Source: Modestobacter caceresii
Lineage (GTDB): Bacteria; Actinomycetota; Actinomycetes; Mycobacteriales; Geodermatophilaceae
DNA length: 64,000 bases
Assembly: GCF_000761485.1 (NCBI RefSeq)
Contig: NZ_JPMX01000119.1
Location: 1-64,000 of the forward strand
Reading direction: 5' to 3'
Positions 1,018-63,775 of this stretch are shown one piece after another. Under the pieces are notes generated by a model. It saw only the letters and a list, made by a program, of their open reading frames with translations. It was not told the origin of the DNA and ran no database searches. A program made the position numbers and the translations under genes. Each line of letters opens with the position of its first letter. The first letter of the stretch is position 1.

Positions 1018-3372
1018 TCAGGCCGGGCGGGGTCGGCGGGGGGCCCGGGCGGCCGTCCACCGTGCGGCCGTCGCGAGCGTGGAAGCCGGCCACACCGCCG
1101 CCCGGATCCGCTGACCGCGGGAGGAGGACCGGAGCAACGCCCGCCGCACCGTCGTCAGCGCCTCGGTCAGCGTCGGGTCCGGGCCGGGCCGGCCCGCCGG
1201 CGGGCCGTACACCGAACGCTCCTGGGCCAGCGCCAGGGTCCGCACCGCCGGGACCGCGGCGGGGTCGGTGGCGGCGAGCCGCTGGGCCAGCTCGAGGGCC
1301 AGCTGGCGTGCCGTCGACGTGCCGGGCAGCTCGACGCCCAGGTCGGCGGTGGTCGCCAGCAGCTCGTCCCACAAGGCGCCCGGCCGTCCGTCGGCCAGCC
1401 GGGCGGCGCGCTGACGGCGGCGGACGGCGAACGGCACCGCGGCCAGGGCGAGCACGACCAGCGTGCCCGCTGCCCCGAGCAGCCACGGCCTGAGCTGCTG
1501 CTGCGGTACGGCCTGGGGCGCCAGCGGCGGCACGTACTGGTCGTCGCGGTCCAGCTCGGCGCTCGGCGCTGCCGGCAGCGGTGCGCCGACGTCCGGTGTG
1601 GCCGTGTCCGGGGTGTCGTCGTCGACCGCGTCGGTGCGGGGCGCCCAGGGGAGCTCCACGGCGCGGTCGGCGGCGATCGGGGTGGGGTCGAAGGGGATCC
1701 AGCCGATGCCGGCGAACCAGGCCTCGACCCAGGCGTGCGCGTCGTCGGTGGTGACCACCCGGTCGCCGTCCTCGCCGACCTGACCGGGCGTGTAGCCCAG
1801 CACCACCCGGGCCGGCACCCCCGCTGCCCGGACCAGCACGGCCATCGCCCCGGCGTACTGCTCGCAGTAGCCGCGCTTGAGCCGGAGGAAGTCGGCGAGG
1901 TCGTCACCGGTGGTGCCCTGGCTGGTGGACAGGCTGTAGGCGAAGCCGTTGGCCGGGTCGGTGAACAGCCCGAGCACGGCCCGGACCCGCTCGTAGGGCG
2001 ACTGCGCCGGGTCGGTGAGCTGGTCGGCCAGGGCGGTGACGGCGGGGTCGAGCTCGGGCAGCGCCGTGTAGCGCTCCACGAGGGGGTCGCCGGGGACCAG
2101 CGGCGCGGCGGCCAGCTCCGCCGTGCTCGGCCGCGGCTGCTGGGCGGTGAACCGGTAGGCCAGCCCCCCGGTGGTCACGTCCCGGCCGAAGACGGTCCGG
2201 GCGGCGGGGTCGAAGCGCCAGTCCTCGTCCTCGGACCCCAGCACCTGCACCGACAGCGGCGAGTCCAGCAGCGGGAGGAAGCGGTCGTCGTGCTGCAGCA
2301 CGGTGACCCGGGCCGTCACCGCACGGCTGGACCGCGGGTCGGGGAGCGGCGCCAGCGGTCGGTCGCCCGCGATCGACTCCTGGCCGTCGAGGTTGCTCAT
2401 CCGCCAACCGCCGTCGCCGCTGTACTCGTCGAGCGACACCGAGCGCAGGTACCCCGGGTCGGCCACCGACGCGTCGACCTGCAGCAGGTCGATCGGCTCG
2501 GGCAGGGTCAGCTGGCCGGCCATCTCCGCCACCGGGTCCAGCGACGTGCCCACCCCGTTGCCGGTGCCCGCCCCGCCCAGCCCCGCGGCGAGCGAGCCCT
2601 CGGCCAGCATGGGCACGAACGCCGGCACCAGCAGGCCGGCCACCAGGGCGACCACGCCGGTGCGCAGGGCCGGCAGGGTGCCGGTGCCCATCGGCGACCC
2701 ACTGCCACCCCGGGCGTCCCCGACCAGCCGCGCCCGCTGGTCGGCCCACAGCAGGACGGCGAACCCGGCCGCCGGGGCGGCGAAGGAGATCAGCGCGACC
2801 TCCCCGATCACGGTGCTCACCGGGACGCAGTAGAGGACCAGCAGACCGAGCCCGCCCAGCGCCGGCTGGCGGGCGGGGACGGCGAGCAGGTCGACGGCCA
2901 GCGCGATCAGGGCGACGAAGACGGTGGTCAGCGCCACCAGCCCGGTCAACGGCAACGCCGGCGTGGCCTGCTCCCGGATCTCCGCGGTGCCGTCCCCGAG
3001 CAGACCGGCCAGGTCGGCCAGGCTGCCCAGGGTCGGCAGCACGCCCGCCCAGCCGCGCTCGGGCGTGAAGACGACCGTCAGGACGACGAGCACCAGGGCC
3101 ACCTGGCCCAGCGGCACCGCCAGCCGGGCCGGGCCGGCCCACCACGGGGAGTCGTCCCCGGCGGAGTCGACCAACCGGTCCAGCAGCGCACGCAGCGCCA
3201 CCCCGCCCAGGCCGACGGCGGCCACCACCATGGTCACCGGCAGCAGCCACGTGCGGGCGGCGAAGACCGGGTCCAGCGCCAACGCTCCCAGTCCGACGGC
3301 GACGGCGACCGCGATCCCGGTGCCCGGCCCGCCGCGGGTGGCCCGGGGCAGCTCGTCGATCTGACCGCTCAC
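1018..3372 (-). CDS. TgpA-type membrane transglutaminase-like protein (DUF3488 + transglutaminase core)
   Basis: 784 residues from GTG. Several hydrophobic segments in the first 250 residues form the DUF3488 membrane domain, followed by an extracytoplasmic region and a transglutaminase-like core. The papain-like triad can be read: Cys in GYCEQYAGA (about residue 503), His in [11 protein letters not shown] and Asp in IPFDPTP. A further membrane segment ([20 protein letters not shown]) precedes a cytoplasmic tail of about 140 residues. The start GTG overlaps the DUF58 stop in a GTGA, so the two genes are translationally coupled. MoxR-DUF58-TgpA operons are widespread in actinobacteria beside mraZ. 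Their products are thought to act at the cell envelope, but no substrate is established, and none can be deduced from this sequence. Confidence 0.9.
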
Positions 3373-10537: not shown

Positions 10538-12097
10538 GTGACCCCGACCGCCGCCGGGGCGGCGTCCCGGCCAGCCGGGAACCGCCCGCTCTCCCTCGCC
10601 GATCTCGCCGACCTCATCGGCGTCCCGGTGACCGGCGCGACCGCCGTGGCCGTCACCGGCGTCACCCACGCGTCCGGGGACGTCCGCCCCGGTGACCTCT
10701 ACGCCGCTCTCCCCGGCGCCCGCACCCACGGCGCCCGCTACACCGCCGACGCCGCCGCGCGCGGTGCCCGCGCGGTGCTCACCGACCCGGCGGGGGAGGA
10801 GCAGGCCCGGGCCGCGGGCCTGCCGGTCTGCGTGGCCGACGACCCGCGGGCCGTGCTCGGCGCGGTCGCCTCCCGGGTCTACGGGATGCCCAGCGAGCGG
10901 CTGGCAGTGCTCGGCATCACCGGCACCAACGGCAAGACGACGACGAGCTACCTGGTCGAGGCCGGCCTGGCCGCCGCCGGCTGGGCCAGCGGCCTGATCG
11001 GCACCGTGCAGACCCGCACCCGGGGCCGGGACGCCGACGGTGCACCGGTCACCACGGAGCTGCCCAGCGTCCGCACCACCCCGGAGGCGGCCGACCTGCA
11101 CGCGCTGCTGGCCACGATGGTCGACTCCGGGGTGCGCGCGGTGGTCATGGAGGTGTCCAGCCACGCGCTGGTCCTGGGCCGGGTCGGTGGGGTGCGCTTC
11201 GCCGCCGCCGGCTTCACCAACCTCTCCCGCGACCACCTGGACTTCCACGGCGACCCGGAGAGCTACTTCCAGGCCAAGGCGCTGCTGTTCGACGGCCGCG
11301 CCGCGGTCGAGGTGGTCGACGTCGACGACCCCGCCGGACGGCGGCTGGTCCGCCCCGGCACGGTCACCGTCTCCGGCTCCGGTGCCGGTGGGGCGGACTG
11401 GTCGGCCACCGACGTGGCCGCCGTCCCCGCCGGTGGCTCGACCTTCACGCTGCACGGTCCCGGCGGCCGCAGCTGGCCGGCGCGGCTGCGGCTGCCGGGC
11501 AGCTTCAACGTGGCCAACGCGGTGCTCGCCGTCGCCCTGCTGGACGCCGTCGGGGTGCCGCCGGAGACGTCGCTGACCGGGATCGCCGAGACCGTCGTCC
11601 CCGGGCGGATGGAGCCGGTGGACGCCGGACAGCCGTTCGTCGCCGTCGTCGACTACGCGCACACCCCCGACGCGGTGCAGACCGCGCTGGCCGCGCTCCG
11701 GCCGGCGACCCCCGGGCGGCTGCTCACCGTGCTCGGCTGCGGCGGTGACCGCGACCCGGGCAAGCGGCCGGGGATGGGCGCCGCCGCGGCGGCCGGCAGC
11801 GACGTCCTGGTGATCACCGACGACAACCCGCGCTCGGAGGACCCCGCGGCCATCCGCGCGGCGATGCGCGCCGGTGCCGACGACGTCCCCGCCGACCGGC
11901 GGGCCGAGGTGCTGGAGATCGGTGACCGGCGGGCCGCCCTCGCGGCCGCCGTCGGGCTCGCCGGGCCGGGTGACACGCTGCTCGTGGCCGGCAAGGGCCA
12001 TGAGACGGGTCAGGAGGTGGGGGGCCAGGTGCTGCCCTTCGACGACCGCGTGGTGCTGCACGAGCTGCTGGCCGCCCACGCCGAGGTGGACGCGTGA
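10538..12097 (+). CDS. murE: UDP-MurNAc-L-Ala-D-Glu:meso-diaminopimelate ligase MurE
   Basis: 519 residues. It adds the third stem-peptide residue to UDP-MurNAc-dipeptide using ATP. Seen: the Mur ATP loop GTNGKTTT at 129-136, the central-domain SSHAL and FTNLSRDHLDFHG, and DNPR at 429-432, the motif that in known MurE proteins marks meso-DAP rather than lysine specificity. VAGKGHE lies near the end. The start is uncertain: GTG 10538 follows a -10-like TAGATT by 8 nt, while an in-frame GTG at 10496 lies inside an SD-like AGGAGGTGAT and would add 14 residues. The stop lies at the edge of a repeat element that separates murE from murF. Confidence 0.95.
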   Translation: MTPTAAGAASRPAGNRPLSLADLADLIGVPVTGATAVAVTGVTHASGDVRPGDLYAALPGARTHGARYTADAAARGARAVLTDPAGEEQARAAGLPVCVADDPRAVLGAVASRVYGMPSERLAVLGITGTNGKTTTSYLVEAGLAAAGWASGLIGTVQTRTRGRDADGAPVTTELPSVRTTPEAADLHALLATMVDSGVRAVVMEVSSHALVLGRVGGVRFAAAGFTNLSRDHLDFHGDPESYFQAKALLFDGRAAVEVVDVDDPAGRRLVRPGTVTVSGSGAGGADWSATDVAAVPAGGSTFTLHGPGGRSWPARLRLPGSFNVANAVLAVALLDAVGVPPETSLTGIAETVVPGRMEPVDAGQPFVAVVDYAHTPDAVQTALAALRPATPGRLLTVLGCGGDRDPGKRPGMGAAAAAGSDVLVITDDNPRSEDPAAIRAAMRAGADDVPADRRAEVLEIGDRRAALAAAVGLAGPGDTLLVAGKGHETGQEVGGQVLPFDDRVVLHELLAAHAEVDA

Positions 12098-12170
12098 CCG
12101 AGCTTGCGAGGGCACGCATGAGCGCAGCATCGTCGAGCACGCGGCCGACGAGCGCCAGCGAGGTGGACGC
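12098..12170 (+). repeat. 73-nt intergenic element between murE and murF (copy 1 of a two-copy family)
   Basis: The element fills the whole gap between the murE stop (GTGA at 12094-12097) and the murF start (GTGA at 12171-12174), a period of exactly 77 bp. A 16-bp direct repeat, CGAGGTGGACGCGTGA, flanks it (12082-12097 and 12159-12174). It matches the trpB-trpA gap (62902-62974) at 59 of 73 positions with no gaps, including the blocks ATGAGCGCAGCA and ACGCGGCCGACGAGCGCC. Its 3' end supplies the GAGG ribosome binding site for murF. A mobile or duplicated origin is inference. Confidence 0.8.
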
Positions 12171-13601
12171 GTGATCACGCTGACCCTGGCCGAGGTGGCC
12201 GCGGCCGTCGACGGCGAGCTCGTCGGGGACGGTGCGACCGAGGTGACCGGTGCGGTGCTGGTCGACTCCCGTGCCGTGGCCCCCGGCGACCTCTTCGTCG
12301 CCCTCCCCGGGGAGCGGGTCGACGGCGCCGACTTCCTCCCCGCCGCCGCGGCGGCCGGCGCGGCCGGTGCACTCACCGCCCGGGCCGACCCGGCGCTGCC
12401 CTGCGTGGTCGTGGCCGACCCGGTGGCGGCCCTGGGCCGGTTGGCCGCGGCCGTGCACGGCCGGCTGGTCGACGCGGGGCTGGTGACCATCGGCGTCACC
12501 GGTTCCTCCGGCAAGACCTCGACCAAGGACCTGCTGGGCCAGGTGCTGGCCGCCGCCGGTGCGACCGTCAGCCCGCAGGGCTCGTTCAACAACGACATCG
12601 GCCTGCCGCTGACCGTGCTCTCCGCCGACGCGGACACCCGCTTCCTGGTGCTGGAGATGGGCTCCCGCGGCTCCGGTCACATCGCCCGGCTGTGCGGGAT
12701 CGCCCGGCCGACGATCGGCGTCGTGCTCAACGTCGGGTCCGCCCACCTCGGGGAGTTCGGCAGCGCAGAGGTGATCGCCACCAGCAAGGGCGAGCTGGTC
12801 GCCGCGCTGCCGGCCACCGGCACGGCCGTGCTCAACGCCGACGACGCGCGGGTGGCCGGCATGGCACCCCGCACGGAGGCCGCCGTGCTGACCACCGGGC
12901 TGGCCGAGCACGCCGACGTGCGGGCCACCGGGGTCGAGCTCGACGACGCCGCCCGCGCCCGGTTCACCCTCCTCGCCCGCGGCGAGCAGCACCCGGTGGC
13001 CCTGCAGGTCGTCGGGGTGCACCAGGTCGCCAACGCGCTCTCCGCCGCCGGCGCGGCCCTGGCCGCCGGGATGACGCCCGCCGCCGTCGCGCAGGCGCTG
13101 TCGGAGGCCGCCCCGCGCAGCCGCTGGCGGATGGAGGTCACCACCCGCGCCGACGGGGTGACCGTCGTCAACGACGCCTACAACGCCAACCCCGAGTCGA
13201 TGCGCGCGGCGCTGGCCGCGCTCAGCCGGTTGCGCGGACGCCGCCGGATCGCCGTGCTCGGCGGGATGGGCGAGCTCGGCCCCACCGCCGGGGTCGCGCA
13301 CGAGGAGCTGGGCCGGGACGCCGTGCGCGCCGGGGTCGACCTGGTCGTCTCCGTCGGGCCCGACGCGGCCGGTGTGCACGCGGGCGCCCGGGCGGAACTG
13401 GACGCCCGTGGTCGCGCAGGCGACCGCGGGGGAGAGCAGGAGGAGTCCGTGCACCTGCCGGACCGGGCAGCAGCCCGGCGGTTGCTGGGCGAGGTGGTCG
13501 GGCCGGGTGACGTCGTCCTGGTCAAGGCCTCGCGCAGTTACGGCCTCGAGGAGCTCGCCGCCGACCTGATCGCCGACGGCGGCCCGGAGGTGACCGCGTG
13601 A
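12171..13601 (+). CDS. murF: UDP-MurNAc-tripeptide:D-Ala-D-Ala ligase MurF
   Basis: 476 residues from GTG 12171, giving VITLTLAEVAAAVDG at the N terminus with GAGG seven nt upstream. MurF adds D-Ala-D-Ala to complete the cytoplasmic pentapeptide precursor. Seen: ATP loop GSSGKTST near 111-118, GSFNNDIGLPLT, LEMGSRGSGHI, NVGSAHLGEFG, and NDAYNANPESMRAAL near residue 340. An open frame reaches further upstream through the repeat element, but that part is not MurF-like. The stop overlaps mraY as GTGA. Confidence 0.96.
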   Translation: MITLTLAEVAAAVDGELVGDGATEVTGAVLVDSRAVAPGDLFVALPGERVDGADFLPAAAAAGAAGALTARADPALPCVVVADPVAALGRLAAAVHGRLVDAGLVTIGVTGSSGKTSTKDLLGQVLAAAGATVSPQGSFNNDIGLPLTVLSADADTRFLVLEMGSRGSGHIARLCGIARPTIGVVLNVGSAHLGEFGSAEVIATSKGELVAALPATGTAVLNADDARVAGMAPRTEAAVLTTGLAEHADVRATGVELDDAARARFTLLARGEQHPVALQVVGVHQVANALSAAGAALAAGMTPAAVAQALSEAAPRSRWRMEVTTRADGVTVVNDAYNANPESMRAALAALSRLRGRRRIAVLGGMGELGPTAGVAHEELGRDAVRAGVDLVVSVGPDAAGVHAGARAELDARGRAGDRGGEQEESVHLPDRAAARRLLGEVVGPGDVVLVKASRSYGLEELAADLIADGGPEVTA

Positions 13602-21555: not shown

Positions 21556-22869
21556 ATGACACCTCCGCACAACTACCTAGCGGTCATCAAGGTCGTCGGC
21601 ATCGGCGGCGGCGGGGTGAACGCGGTCAATCGCATGATCGAGGTCGGCCTCAAGGGGGTCGAGTTCATCGCGATCAACACCGATGCGCAGGCACTGTTGA
21701 TGAGCGACGCCGACGTCAAGCTCGACGTCGGTCGTGAGCTCACCCGAGGTCTGGGTGCCGGCGCGCAGCCCGACGTCGGCCGGCAGGCCGCCGAGGACCA
21801 CCGCGAGGAGATCGAAGAGGTGCTCAAGGGCGCCGACATGGTCTTCGTGACGGCCGGCGAGGGTGGCGGCACGGGCACCGGCGGTGCGCCCGTCGTCGCC
21901 TCCATCTCCCGCAAGCTCGGCGCCCTGACGATCGGTGTGGTCACCCGCCCGTTCTCCTTCGAGGGGAAGCGGCGGGCGGTCCAGGCCGAGACGGGCATCG
22001 AGGAGCTGCGCAACGAGTGCGACACGCTGATCGTGATCCCGAACGACCGGCTGCTGCAGCTGGGCGACCGGAACGTCAGCGTGATGGACGCCTTCCGCAC
22101 CGCCGACCAGGTCCTGCTCTCCGGTGTGCAGGGCATCACCGACCTGATCACCACCCCCGGTCTGATCAACCTGGACTTCGCCGACGTCAAGTCGGTCATG
22201 TCCGGGGCAGGGTCGGCGCTGATGGGGATCGGCAGCGCCCGCGGCGACAACCGCGCGCTGCTGGCCGCCGAGCAGGCGATCGCCTCACCTCTGCTGGAGG
22301 CCTCGATGGAGGGCGCCCACGGCGTCCTGCTGTCGATCTCCGGTGGGTCGGACCTGGGTCTGTTCGAGATCAACGAGGCCGCCTCGCTGGTCTCCGACGC
22401 CGCGCACCCCGACGCCAACATCATCTTCGGTGCCGTCATCGACGACGCCCTCGGTGACGAGGTGCGGGTCACCGTGATCGCGGCCGGGTTCGACGGTGGC
22501 AAGCCCGGCACCCGCAAGGACGCCGGCAGCACGCCGTTGGCGACCTCGGCCCCGACCGCCCCGGCTGCTCCGGCCGCACCGGTCAGTGCTCCGCCGGCGG
22601 CCCGTCCGTCGGTGCCGGCACAGACCGGCGAGCGGCCGGCCAGCCAGGCTCCGGCCCAGGCTGCACCGCCGCAGGTCCCGGCGGCACCCGTGACCTCCTC
22701 GCCGTCGGCGCCGCGACCGGGACAGCCCGGCAGTGCGCCGCAGGGTGGCGGGATCACGGTGCCCCCGCTGCCGCCGATCGCCGGGCAGTCCGGCGGCACC
22801 CGCCGGCCGCTCGCGACCGACGACTTCGAGGAAGAGCTCGACATCCCCGAGTTCCTGCGCAGCCAGTGA
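21556..22869 (+). CDS. ftsZ: Cell division GTPase FtsZ
   Basis: 437 residues. This tubulin homologue forms the Z ring. Seen: [16 protein letters not shown], the tubulin signature GGGTGTG at 103-109, [17 protein letters not shown] and the synergy loop region [15 protein letters not shown] ~110-residue Ala/Pro-rich linker leads to the conserved C-terminal peptide DIPEFLRSQ, the docking site for SepF and FtsW in actinobacteria. ATG 21556 has GGGGAG upstream. Its stop is followed directly by repeated hairpin sequences that could end or attenuate the transcript. Confidence 0.98.
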
Positions 22870-22870
22870 G

Positions 22871-22980
22871 AGGACCCTCTTTCCCCCCACCCCTCGCAGG
22901 CTCGGGGCGGGACCCTGAAAGAGGGCCGTTCCAGCAGGTCGCCATGCTCGCAGCGGGACCCTGCACGGGGGCCGTTCCCA
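22871..22980 (-). repeat. Tandem copies of the 25-bp intergenic repeat after ftsZ; possible terminator
   Basis: Two units 46 bp apart share CGGGACCCTG (22908-22917, 22954-22963) and GGGCCGTTCC (22923-22932, 22969-22978). Read on the minus strand, 22893-22917 matches the 25-bp core found at 40550-40574 at 24 of 25 positions; 22943-22963 is a shorter copy. The first unit is enclosed by CCCTCTTTC (22875-22883) and GAAAGAGGG (22917-22925), a 9-bp stem that would form just after the ftsZ stop. Confidence 0.7.
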
Positions 22981-40539: not shown

Positions 40540-40540
40540 G

Positions 40541-40592
40541 GTCCCCTTGCAGGGTCCCGCCGCGAGCCTGCGAGCGGCGGGGGCAAGGGGGT
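40541..40592. terminator. Convergent hairpin carrying the 25-bp repeat core
   Basis: Nested inverted repeats: CCCCTTGC (40543-40550) pairs with GCAAGGGG (40583-40590), and inside them CCCGCCGC (40556-40563) pairs with GCGGCGGG (40574-40581). The top is GAGCCTGCGA. The 25-bp core of the dispersed repeat is 40550-40574. Its position between convergent genes suggests a bidirectional terminator. Confidence 0.75.
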
Positions 40593-40598
40593 CCTTCT

Positions 40599-45542: not shown

Positions 45543-45619
45543 GAAGGACCCCCTCCTCCCGGCCCCGCTGCAGGGGCCCGCCGCGAGCTCGCGAGTGGTG
45601 GGGGGCAGCGGGGTCCTTC
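45543..45619. terminator. Convergent hairpin with 25-bp repeat core between hisH and the SDR gene
   Basis: Outer arms GAAGGACCCC (45543-45552) and GGGGTCCTTC (45610-45619) are perfect; CCCCGCTGC (45563-45571) can alternatively pair with GCAGCGGGG (45605-45613). The inner stem CCCGCCGC / GTGGTGGG keeps pairing with two G.U pairs. The repeat core is 45571-45595. Confidence 0.75.
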
Positions 45620-61434: not shown

Positions 61435-61496
61435 TAAGGCCTCGCTGCAGGGGCCCGCCGCGAGCCTGCGAGTGGTGGGGAGCAGGGAGGTCCTTA
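61435..61496 (+). terminator. Hairpin with 25-bp repeat core between trpC and trpB
   Basis: Arms TAAGGCCTCGCTGC (61435-61448) and GCAGGGAGGTCCTTA (61482-61496) pair with one bulge and one mismatch; inner CCCGCCGC and GTGGTGGG pair with two G.U. The repeat core is 61448-61472. The right arm ends on the first two bases of the trpB -10, so hairpin and promoter are physically linked. Confidence 0.65.
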
Positions 61497-61506: not shown

Positions 61507-62901
<1,395 letters not shown>

Positions 62902-62974
62902 GCGAGCGTGCGAGCGAACCGATGAGCGCAGCAGCTCCGCGAACGCGGCCGACGAGCGCCGGCGAGGAGGACTC
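62902..62974 (+). repeat. 73-nt intergenic element between trpB and trpA (copy 2)
   Basis: It fills exactly the gap between the trpB stop (GTGA at 62898-62901) and the trpA start (GTGA at 62975-62978), period 77 bp. It matches the murE-murF copy at 59 of 73 positions without gaps. The flanking direct repeat is GTGAGCG (62898-62904, 62975-62981). GAGGAGG near its 3' end serves as the trpA ribosome site. Confidence 0.8.
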
Positions 62975-63775
62975 GTGAGCGCACTGCAGGAGCGCATCTC
63001 CGCGGCGCGGTCCGACGGGCGGGCGGCGTTGATCGCCTACCTGCCGGTCGGGTACCCCGACGTCGACACCTCGATCGCGGCGATGGTCGCAGCGGTCGAG
63101 GGTGGGGCGGACATCGTGGAGATCGGCGTGCCCTACTCCGACCCGGGGATGGACGGGCCGGTGATCCAGGAGGCCGTCGACGTCGCCGTCCGGGCCGGGG
63201 TCGGCATGGCCGACGTGCTGCGTGCCGTGACCGCGGTCGCCGCCGCCGGTGCCGTGCCGGTGGTGATGAGCTACTGGAACCCGATCGAGCGCTACGGGGT
63301 CGACCGGTTCGCCGACGACCTGGCCGCGGCCGGTGGCGCGGGCGCGATCACCCCCGACCTCATCCCCGACGAGGCCGGCGCGTGGCTGGCCGCCAGCGAC
63401 CGGGTCGGCCTGGACCGGGTCTTCCTGGTCGCGCCGTCGTCCACCGACGCCCGGCTCGCCGCCACCGTCGCCGCCTGCCGCGGCTTCGTCTACGCCGCCT
63501 CCACGATGGGCGTCACCGGCAGCCGGGCCACCGTCGGGGACGCCGCGGAACGACTGGTCGCCCGCACCCGTGCCGCCGCCGGCGGGCCGCCGGTGTGCGT
63601 CGGCCTGGGGGTCTCCACCGGCGACCAGGCGGCCGAGGTCGCCGGGTTCGCCGACGGGGTGATCGTCGGGTCGGCCTACGTGCGGCGGCTGCTCGACGGG
63701 CACGGCGCCGACGGCGTGCGTTCACTGTCCGCCGAGCTCGCCGAGGGCGTCCGGCGTGCGAAGGTGCAGGCATGA
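62975..63775 (+). CDS. trpA: Tryptophan synthase alpha subunit TrpA
   Basis: 266 residues from GTG 62975. It cleaves indole glycerol phosphate and channels indole to TrpB. Catalytic Glu49 (DIVEIGVPYSDP) and Asp60 (GMDGPVIQ) fall at the same positions as in the Salmonella enzyme. LIAYLPVGYPD, MSYWNPIERYGVD and CVGLGVSTGDQA are further motifs. The frame is open upstream through the repeat element, but that part is not TrpA-like. The stop overlaps lgt as ATGA. Confidence 0.97.
   Translation: MSALQERISAARSDGRAALIAYLPVGYPDVDTSIAAMVAAVEGGADIVEIGVPYSDPGMDGPVIQEAVDVAVRAGVGMADVLRAVTAVAAAGAVPVVMSYWNPIERYGVDRFADDLAAAGGAGAITPDLIPDEAGAWLAASDRVGLDRVFLVAPSSTDARLAATVAACRGFVYAASTMGVTGSRATVGDAAERLVARTRAAAGGPPVCVGLGVSTGDQAAEVAGFADGVIVGSAYVRRLLDGHGADGVRSLSAELAEGVRRAKVQA

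Follow-up and report, generated by a model that had tools for sequence, protein, structure and literature searches.

In the 64,000-nucleotide stretch of Modestobacter caceresii DNA analyzed here (contig NZ_JPMX01000119.1, positions 1 to 64,000 of the forward strand; hereafter the window), murE and murF are separated by a 77-bp repeat unit, and a second copy of this unit lies between trpB and trpA. We found that these units belong to a family of short interspersed elements placed immediately upstream of start codons in Geodermatophilaceae genomes, and that the family carries two strongly covarying hairpins, one of which pairs an arm of the element with the coding start of the host gene, a feature that is new here. 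The element is probably of the same general type as the mycobacterial interspersed repetitive units (MIRUs) and would act as a translational-coupling relay. We are evenly balanced on the further proposal that this dispersed, apparently mobile repeat refits its hairpin arm and its bases 37-39 to each gene it has entered, making it a made-to-measure translational coupler. It would constitute a second family of the MIRU kind, present in soil actinobacteria in hundreds of copies and with no detectable sequence similarity to MIRUs. Its filled and empty sites, together with the covariation between repeat and host, offer a testable handle on how a repeat can insert into operons and leave them working, and on how structured start codons may couple translation.

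The original prediction, made from the letters of the window, held that the murE/murF unit has two GTGA ends 77 bp apart within a perfect 16-bp direct repeat, and this was borne out: CGAGGTGGACGCGTGA occupies positions 12082-12097 and recurs, 77 bp further on, at 12159-12174. The murE stop codon TGA lies at 12095-12097 and the murF start codon GTG at 12171-12173. By analogy with empty sites, we placed the element at 12094-12170 on the forward strand, followed directly by murF’s own start at 12171; this boundary is ambiguous within 4 bp because GTGA is present at both ends. The unit forms an in-frame mini-ORF (open reading frame) of 26 codons (12094-12174, forward strand), whose GTG at 12094 overlaps the murE stop and whose TGA at 12172-12174 overlaps the murF start, and it bears a Shine-Dalgarno-like GAGGTGG at 12160-12166 on the same strand. 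The like unit that had been predicted between trpB (stop at 62899-62901) and trpA (start at 62975) is there as well: the copy, 83% identical to the murE/murF copy over 62898-62978, places the element at 62898-62974 and its relay mini-ORF at 62898-62978, both on the forward strand. Pfam is consistent with the naming of all four genes (MurE and MurF have Mur ligase domains, TrpB has PALP and TrpA has Trp_syntA). Under a strict coding-frame test, the window also has 11 stop/start overlaps that are free of the element.

The window copies are not the only ones. A search profile built from 32 copies gave seven strong matches in the source genome (E 7e-23 to 1.4e-9; the next match had E 3.6e-4). Of these seven, two are the window copies, one lies upstream of a gene for cobalamin adenosyltransferase and one upstream of a ResB gene. 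BLAST with a single copy found matches in 39 of 59 relatives’ genomes, and the profile matched 107 of 112 Geodermatophilaceae genomes at E up to 0.01, with 0 to more than 40 copies per genome; the high counts are lower bounds because about 41 candidates were scored in each genome. Ranked by MurF, the closest named genomes belong to Modestobacter and then to Geodermatophilus, Blastococcus, Goekera and Klenkia, which agrees with the family named in the original prediction. Order-wide, 97 of 397 genomes matched at 1e-6, 26 of them outside the Geodermatophilaceae. The matches in these 26 genomes of other families, among them one with 11 (G239), are weaker, and they could show how far such elements reach, or a link to MIRUs. 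We rejected a plasmid or phage carrier, as one copy used as BLAST query had no match in plasmid and phage sequences at E up to 1e-3. Rfam searches with seven loci at E up to 1 returned three matches, all of them away from the element and short of the gathering score.

Orthologous junctions show the element both present and absent. The murE/murF site is filled in G014, with two copies where the window has one, and in G000, G001 and G015, with one each, and it is empty in G019 (the closest relative, MurF 96% identical), G005 (95%), G009 (92%) and others, such that the gap is missing in close and distant relatives alike. The predicted outcome of removing the unit, a murE/murF GTGA overlap, is what the unit-free junction of G019 has; it reads gaggtggatgcGTGATCGCG. 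A MurF tree with 30 rows requires five changes to account for its five filled rows, and well-supported branches force three or more of these; the filled rows cluster no more than shuffled labels, so gains or losses of the element at murE/murF are frequent. This scatter of similar murE/murF copies means that losses may be common, as they would have to be if the unit were an immobile ancestral spacer with many losses. We consider that account very improbable, and it is already contradicted: 131 pairs of copies are at least 94% identical yet have different flanks (some of these pairs are tandem neighbours), copy number ranges across the span given above within a single family, and the copies form tandem arrays. 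The arrays have a period of 77 bp, account for 12 of the 120 places described below, and reach seven copies in the largest (L178).

Which end of the unit belongs to the host was read from two decisive pairs of filled and empty sites, obtained in a search among loci that returned 329 rows, many of those listed being distant MurF comparisons or array-internal self matches. In the first, the filled site L177 reads GTGACC...ATGACGG and the empty site L183 reads GGTCATGACGG. In the second, the filled sites L161, L165 and L394 read ATGACC...GTGTCC or GTGCCC, and the empty site L185 reads GCCGCGTGTCC, a GTGTCC site with no TGA at all. Both pairs show that the right-hand start is the host’s own and that the left DTGA was brought in by the element. 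The left hairpin described below is accordingly internal to the element, and on the same ground we rejected the idea that positions 17-22 act as a guide that selects the left DTGA. The 16-bp direct repeat is incidental. Only 0-1 bases are shared before the left and right starts in 112 of 134 single, non-orthologous copies, and the 12 extra bp of the murE/murF copy are the maximum and peculiar to it; the excess of shared bases over shuffles is small (mean 0.96 versus 0.69, 0/500 shuffles) and comes from few copies. The repeat is thus neither a hallmark of the family nor a general target duplication, an interpretation that we rejected. In this the element differs from miniature inverted-repeat transposable elements, which it also does not resemble at its ends: rather than terminal inverted repeats, it has co-directional ends (GTGA...GTGA), each paired with its own internal arm.

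To define placement, we used a first set of 143 matches, picked by profile similarity, which merge to 120 places (each a single copy or an array) with orthologues retained; coding starts and stops were called by a codon-usage test trained on six window ORFs taken as genes. A coding start lay exactly at the right-hand DTG in 110 of the 120, which is far from random intergenic placement. With seven strong copies in the source genome and the murE/murF gap missing in relatives, none of the outcomes named as refuting the original prediction was seen. An upstream coding stop lay on the left DTGA in 83, and 78 had both the right start and the upstream stop; in 32, the start codon was 3′ of the element and no upstream stop overlap was recognised, while three had another forward frame downstream and seven were unclear. 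In a second set, 107 copies chosen only by a pattern in the left end and middle (one copy without a right start was dropped), right starts were present in 98 and stop overlaps in 66. These counts in both sets indicate that the start codon is the constant and that the stop overlap is frequent but not required. The claim that the element targets start/stop overlaps thus holds as a strong preference and fails as a strict need; it is the start codon that is needed. The element was oriented along the host gene in 110 of the 120 and clearly inverted in none, with a weak best frame on the opposite strand in two of the unclear places (L042 and L095). All 134 single copies examined had an SD-like (Shine-Dalgarno-like) motif before the right start, in agreement with the prediction that the element supplies its own ribosome site and start codon. 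Counted in one set of 154 copies and in the 107 of the second set, the relay ORF was intact in 141 and 91, respectively.

The covariation of the family reveals two hairpins. Numbering the element from its left DTGA, positions 1-6 pair with 17-22 over the mini-ORF start codon, a left hairpin that falls at 12094-12115 (forward strand) in the murE/murF copy and is imperfect there (GTGACC/GGGCAC). Position 22 was T in 85 of 108 copies with ATGA at the left and C in 126 of 129 with GTGA (Fisher 1e-46; 8e-12 on distinct 22-mers). Next to this stem, the base before the left DTG (position 0) paired with position 23 in 68 of 132 copies versus 47 in shuffles, and because this exceeds the shuffles the left hairpin may also fit its flank.

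The right stem joins positions 41-48 to 77-84. Most copies have a tandem G.A step within it, at 44-45/80-81, and its bases 82-84 are host gene sequence. In the murE/murF copy, the arm CGAGCAC (positions 41-47, 12134-12140) has as its partner the murF start codon and the bases that follow (12171-12177), which form the 3′ side of the hairpin; both lie on the forward strand. When 154 copies were slid through 30 offsets, positions 47, 43 and 42 came out as the best match for bases 78, 82 and 83, respectively. Among 71 non-orthologous copies picked by pattern, 47:78, 43:82 and 42:83 were paired in 89%, 93% and 85%, compared to 62%, 44% and 57% after shuffling (0/2000 shuffles reached the observed value in each case). 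We then used a structure set of 132 non-orthologous copies, from which other lengths and copies without the search motif were dropped, so that some alignment columns are fixed by the choice. Here, 85.8% of cells were in standard pairs versus 79.0 when shuffled, double changes numbered 120 versus 30.2 in shuffles, and slid versions of the structure reached only 16-41%. RNAalifold, with no structure supplied, gave the same two hairpins de novo, and an all-against-all pair scan placed 42:83, 43:82, 5:18, 47:78, 41:84 and 1:22 within the top eight. With G-U counted, the host bases were paired at 43:82 in 97% and at 42:83 in 98% of copies. The G-U pairs themselves (42:83 in 6 copies, 46:79 in 12) are compatible with folding of the coding strand. 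Variable bases between the Shine-Dalgarno motif and the start (positions 73-77) covaried with the arm (positions 48-52) at 48:77, 50:75 and 52:73, so the right hairpin extends beyond its host-matched part.

A second stretch of the element also follows the host. Positions 37-39 were the same as host bases 82-84 in 121, 120 and 75 of 132 copies, against 75.8, 99.5 and 47.4 expected (0/2000 shuffles), and with 41-43 they make up an inverted repeat centred on a single base; the murE/murF mimic is ATCG (positions 36-39, 12129-12132, forward strand), of which 37-38 match murF bases 82-83 (TC). Moreover, in several cases, though not in all of them, copies that share a host gene differ in arm and host bases together: in group 14, the host/arm combinations include ATGAGCC/GGCTCAT, ATGACCC/GGGTCAT and ATGACGC/GCGTCAT.

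These features suggest a mechanism in which masking by RNA, reinitiation at the relay and adjustment by selection are inferred from sequence. The element sits directly 5′ of the host start codon, in most cases at an overlap of this codon with the stop of the preceding gene, and its left DTGA would serve both as the upstream gene’s stop and as the start of the 26-codon mini-ORF, while the Shine-Dalgarno motif at its right end would serve the host start. The mRNA is predicted to fold into the two hairpins, the left one hiding the mini-ORF start and the right one engaging the host start codon, together with bases of codons 2 and 3 of the host gene, through the internal arm. Ribosomes finishing the upstream gene would restart on the mini-ORF, open the right hairpin, and stop at the TGA over the host start, passing translation on. 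With such a relay, insertion would therefore keep the two genes coupled rather than separated, and the arm would stay matched to the host codons, in part by adjustment after insertion.

Several observations weigh against this proposal. The relay ORF is not intact in 13 copies of the set of 154, some of them owing to wrongly placed left ends, and in 16 of 107 in the other set, and variation in the relay peptide is not in excess at third codon positions; with this codon-position signal not found, we rejected a function for the peptide. At the centre of the right stem, 111 and 89 of 132 copies have no standard pair, mostly owing to the tandem G.A, and at murF itself 41:84 is unpaired and 44/81 is a G.A mismatch. 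Folded singly, the window copies were on a par with shuffles (z 0.27 and 0.53) and lacked the consensus, which two of three other copies did show. Exchanging positions 36-53 between copies worsened the minimum free energy (p=0.001) but did not change start-codon accessibility significantly (p=0.12). Among the 18 same-gene groups listed, two of which are array-internal, groups 2, 3, 5 and 6 contain mismatches too, and at the group 14 gene L348 and L355 are mismatched at two positions and L377 at one. Finally, copies whose close relative sits at a different gene were no less well matched than the others at 42:83, 43:82 and 47:78 when all hosts were included (p=1, 1 and 0.37).

This last result is also what would be expected if the match were set at insertion, with a single-stranded transposition intermediate picking its target by pairing with DTGANN, as the ends of IS200/IS605 elements do; the covariation would then reflect target choice rather than RNA function. 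We regard this DNA guide as unlikely. GC-type starts were found for 57 of these 64 close-relative copies, but for 32 of 68 others and 36 of 80 empty overlaps (62 of 67 close-relative copies when array-internal units are included), bases 5 and 82 are associated (G/G 46, G/C 10, C/G 2, C/C 37, p=9e-15, orthologues and array-internal units included), and the lack of clearly inverted copies fits as well. The bias toward GC-type starts, however, would arise equally from purging of mismatched insertions and therefore allows either account. Against a guide, the close-relative copies matched worse at 41:84 (45 of 64 versus 60 of 68 others, p=0.017) and at non-GC hosts (4 of 7 matched versus 33 of 36, p=0.045, a comparison with only seven close-relative copies, which also limits what it can lend to adjustment), and copies at the same gene differ jointly in host codon and arm. 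In addition, the Y1 transposase (PF01797) was detected in 0 of 112 Geodermatophilaceae genomes, with 5 of 14 control genomes positive, and we rejected an IS200/IS605 mobiliser on this basis. For the relay with a refitted arm, the comparison of close-relative copies with the others, together with the co-changes, is only suggestive of a partial adjustment after insertion.

Mutation alone could also perfect the arm: template switching within imperfect inverted repeats would make one arm copy its neighbour, with no need of selection. The copying of host bases 82-84 into 37-39 above chance, and the inverted repeat with a one-base centre that these form with 41-43, resemble the product of such an event. 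Yet correction of this kind would remove the tandem G.A mismatches, which are retained (of 132 copies, 109 have G44/A81 and 83 have A45/G80), and the inner hairpin C-GA-GC-GCCA-GC-GA-G at positions 56-69 (12149-12162, forward strand, in the murE/murF copy) is almost invariant, some of its letters being fixed by the copy-picking pattern. We therefore hold mutation alone to be quite improbable.

The relay proposed here has a close parallel in mycobacteria. MIRUs, reportedly described by Supply et al. in 1997, have long been in use as typing markers, their spread and translational action being open questions; a 77-bp MIRU type and a fixed MIRU orientation are known. A MIRU repeat used as query matched 205 of 396 genomes in the genus of a PPE-bearing genome (G041), which we take to be Mycobacterium, and units at mycobacterial MIRU loci were mostly bounded by ATGA or GTGA and about 51-54 bp long. 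According to passages of a 2025 review (PMC12548453), MIRUs are apparently mobile, insert at start codons and contain an internal ORF coupled at -4 spacing, and a passage of PMC2734929 puts them at 40-100 bp and at 41 places in H37Rv. The present element is likewise a small unit at start codons with an internal ORF that overlaps the next gene by 4 nt. Its 77 bp fall within the size range given in that passage of PMC2734929, it is dispersed and forms tandem arrays of variable copy number with the same layout as in mycobacterial loci, and it shares the host gene’s orientation at the 110 of 120 places noted above. The original prediction knew of no described family with this property, and it was wrong there because the element’s architecture is that of mycobacterial MIRUs, which share the property as far as the passages of PMC12548453 describe them. 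The two differ in length, 77 bp against about 51-54 bp at the MIRU loci inspected, and have no significant sequence match: across 20 MIRU loci, the best E for the element profile was 0.015, outside the repeats, and 1.5-2.1 inside them. By analogy, the element appears to work like a MIRU and to be of the same kind; the profile, which does not match the mycobacterial loci, gives no evidence of a common origin. MIRUs may work by the same refitting principle. In open-licence papers, we found none on such a repeat outside Mycobacterium.

In four MIRU arrays (L208, L214, L219 and L223), the bases after ATG or GTG repeat the first bases of the next gene, examples being ATGACTCCCG, ATGAGT and GTGTGCCCG, and because of this MIRU units too may be fitted to host starts. 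On the opposite strand of another MIRU-array locus, L213, a tandem array of period 56 with at least nine units spans 2468-3077.

Two other known systems share parts of this architecture. Non-autonomous elements derived from IS200/IS605, and the REP/RAYT system, have terminal hairpins, a fixed strand, a tetranucleotide-like target and pairing of an arm with the junction. The element resembles them in its terminal hairpins, its fixed strand, its tetranucleotide-like target and an internal arm that pairs with the junction, but differs in that no Y1 transposase was found in the 112 genomes and in lying before, not after, the host start codon. Translational attenuators of the erm type combine a short leader ORF with a hairpin that covers the start codon of the downstream gene and its ribosome site. 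The element has a similar short leader ORF and a hairpin that would mask the downstream start and ribosome site; unlike these attenuators, it is repetitive and dispersed over unrelated genes, and no inducer is known.

The window contains another repeat, of 58 nt, with copies at 40540-40597, 45561-45618 and 61438-61495 and an inverted copy at 22869-22927. It is partly palindromic, CTGCAGGG...GGGTCCTT, and is possibly terminator-like. It holds a CGAGC..GCGAG motif, as do both hairpins of the 77-bp element.

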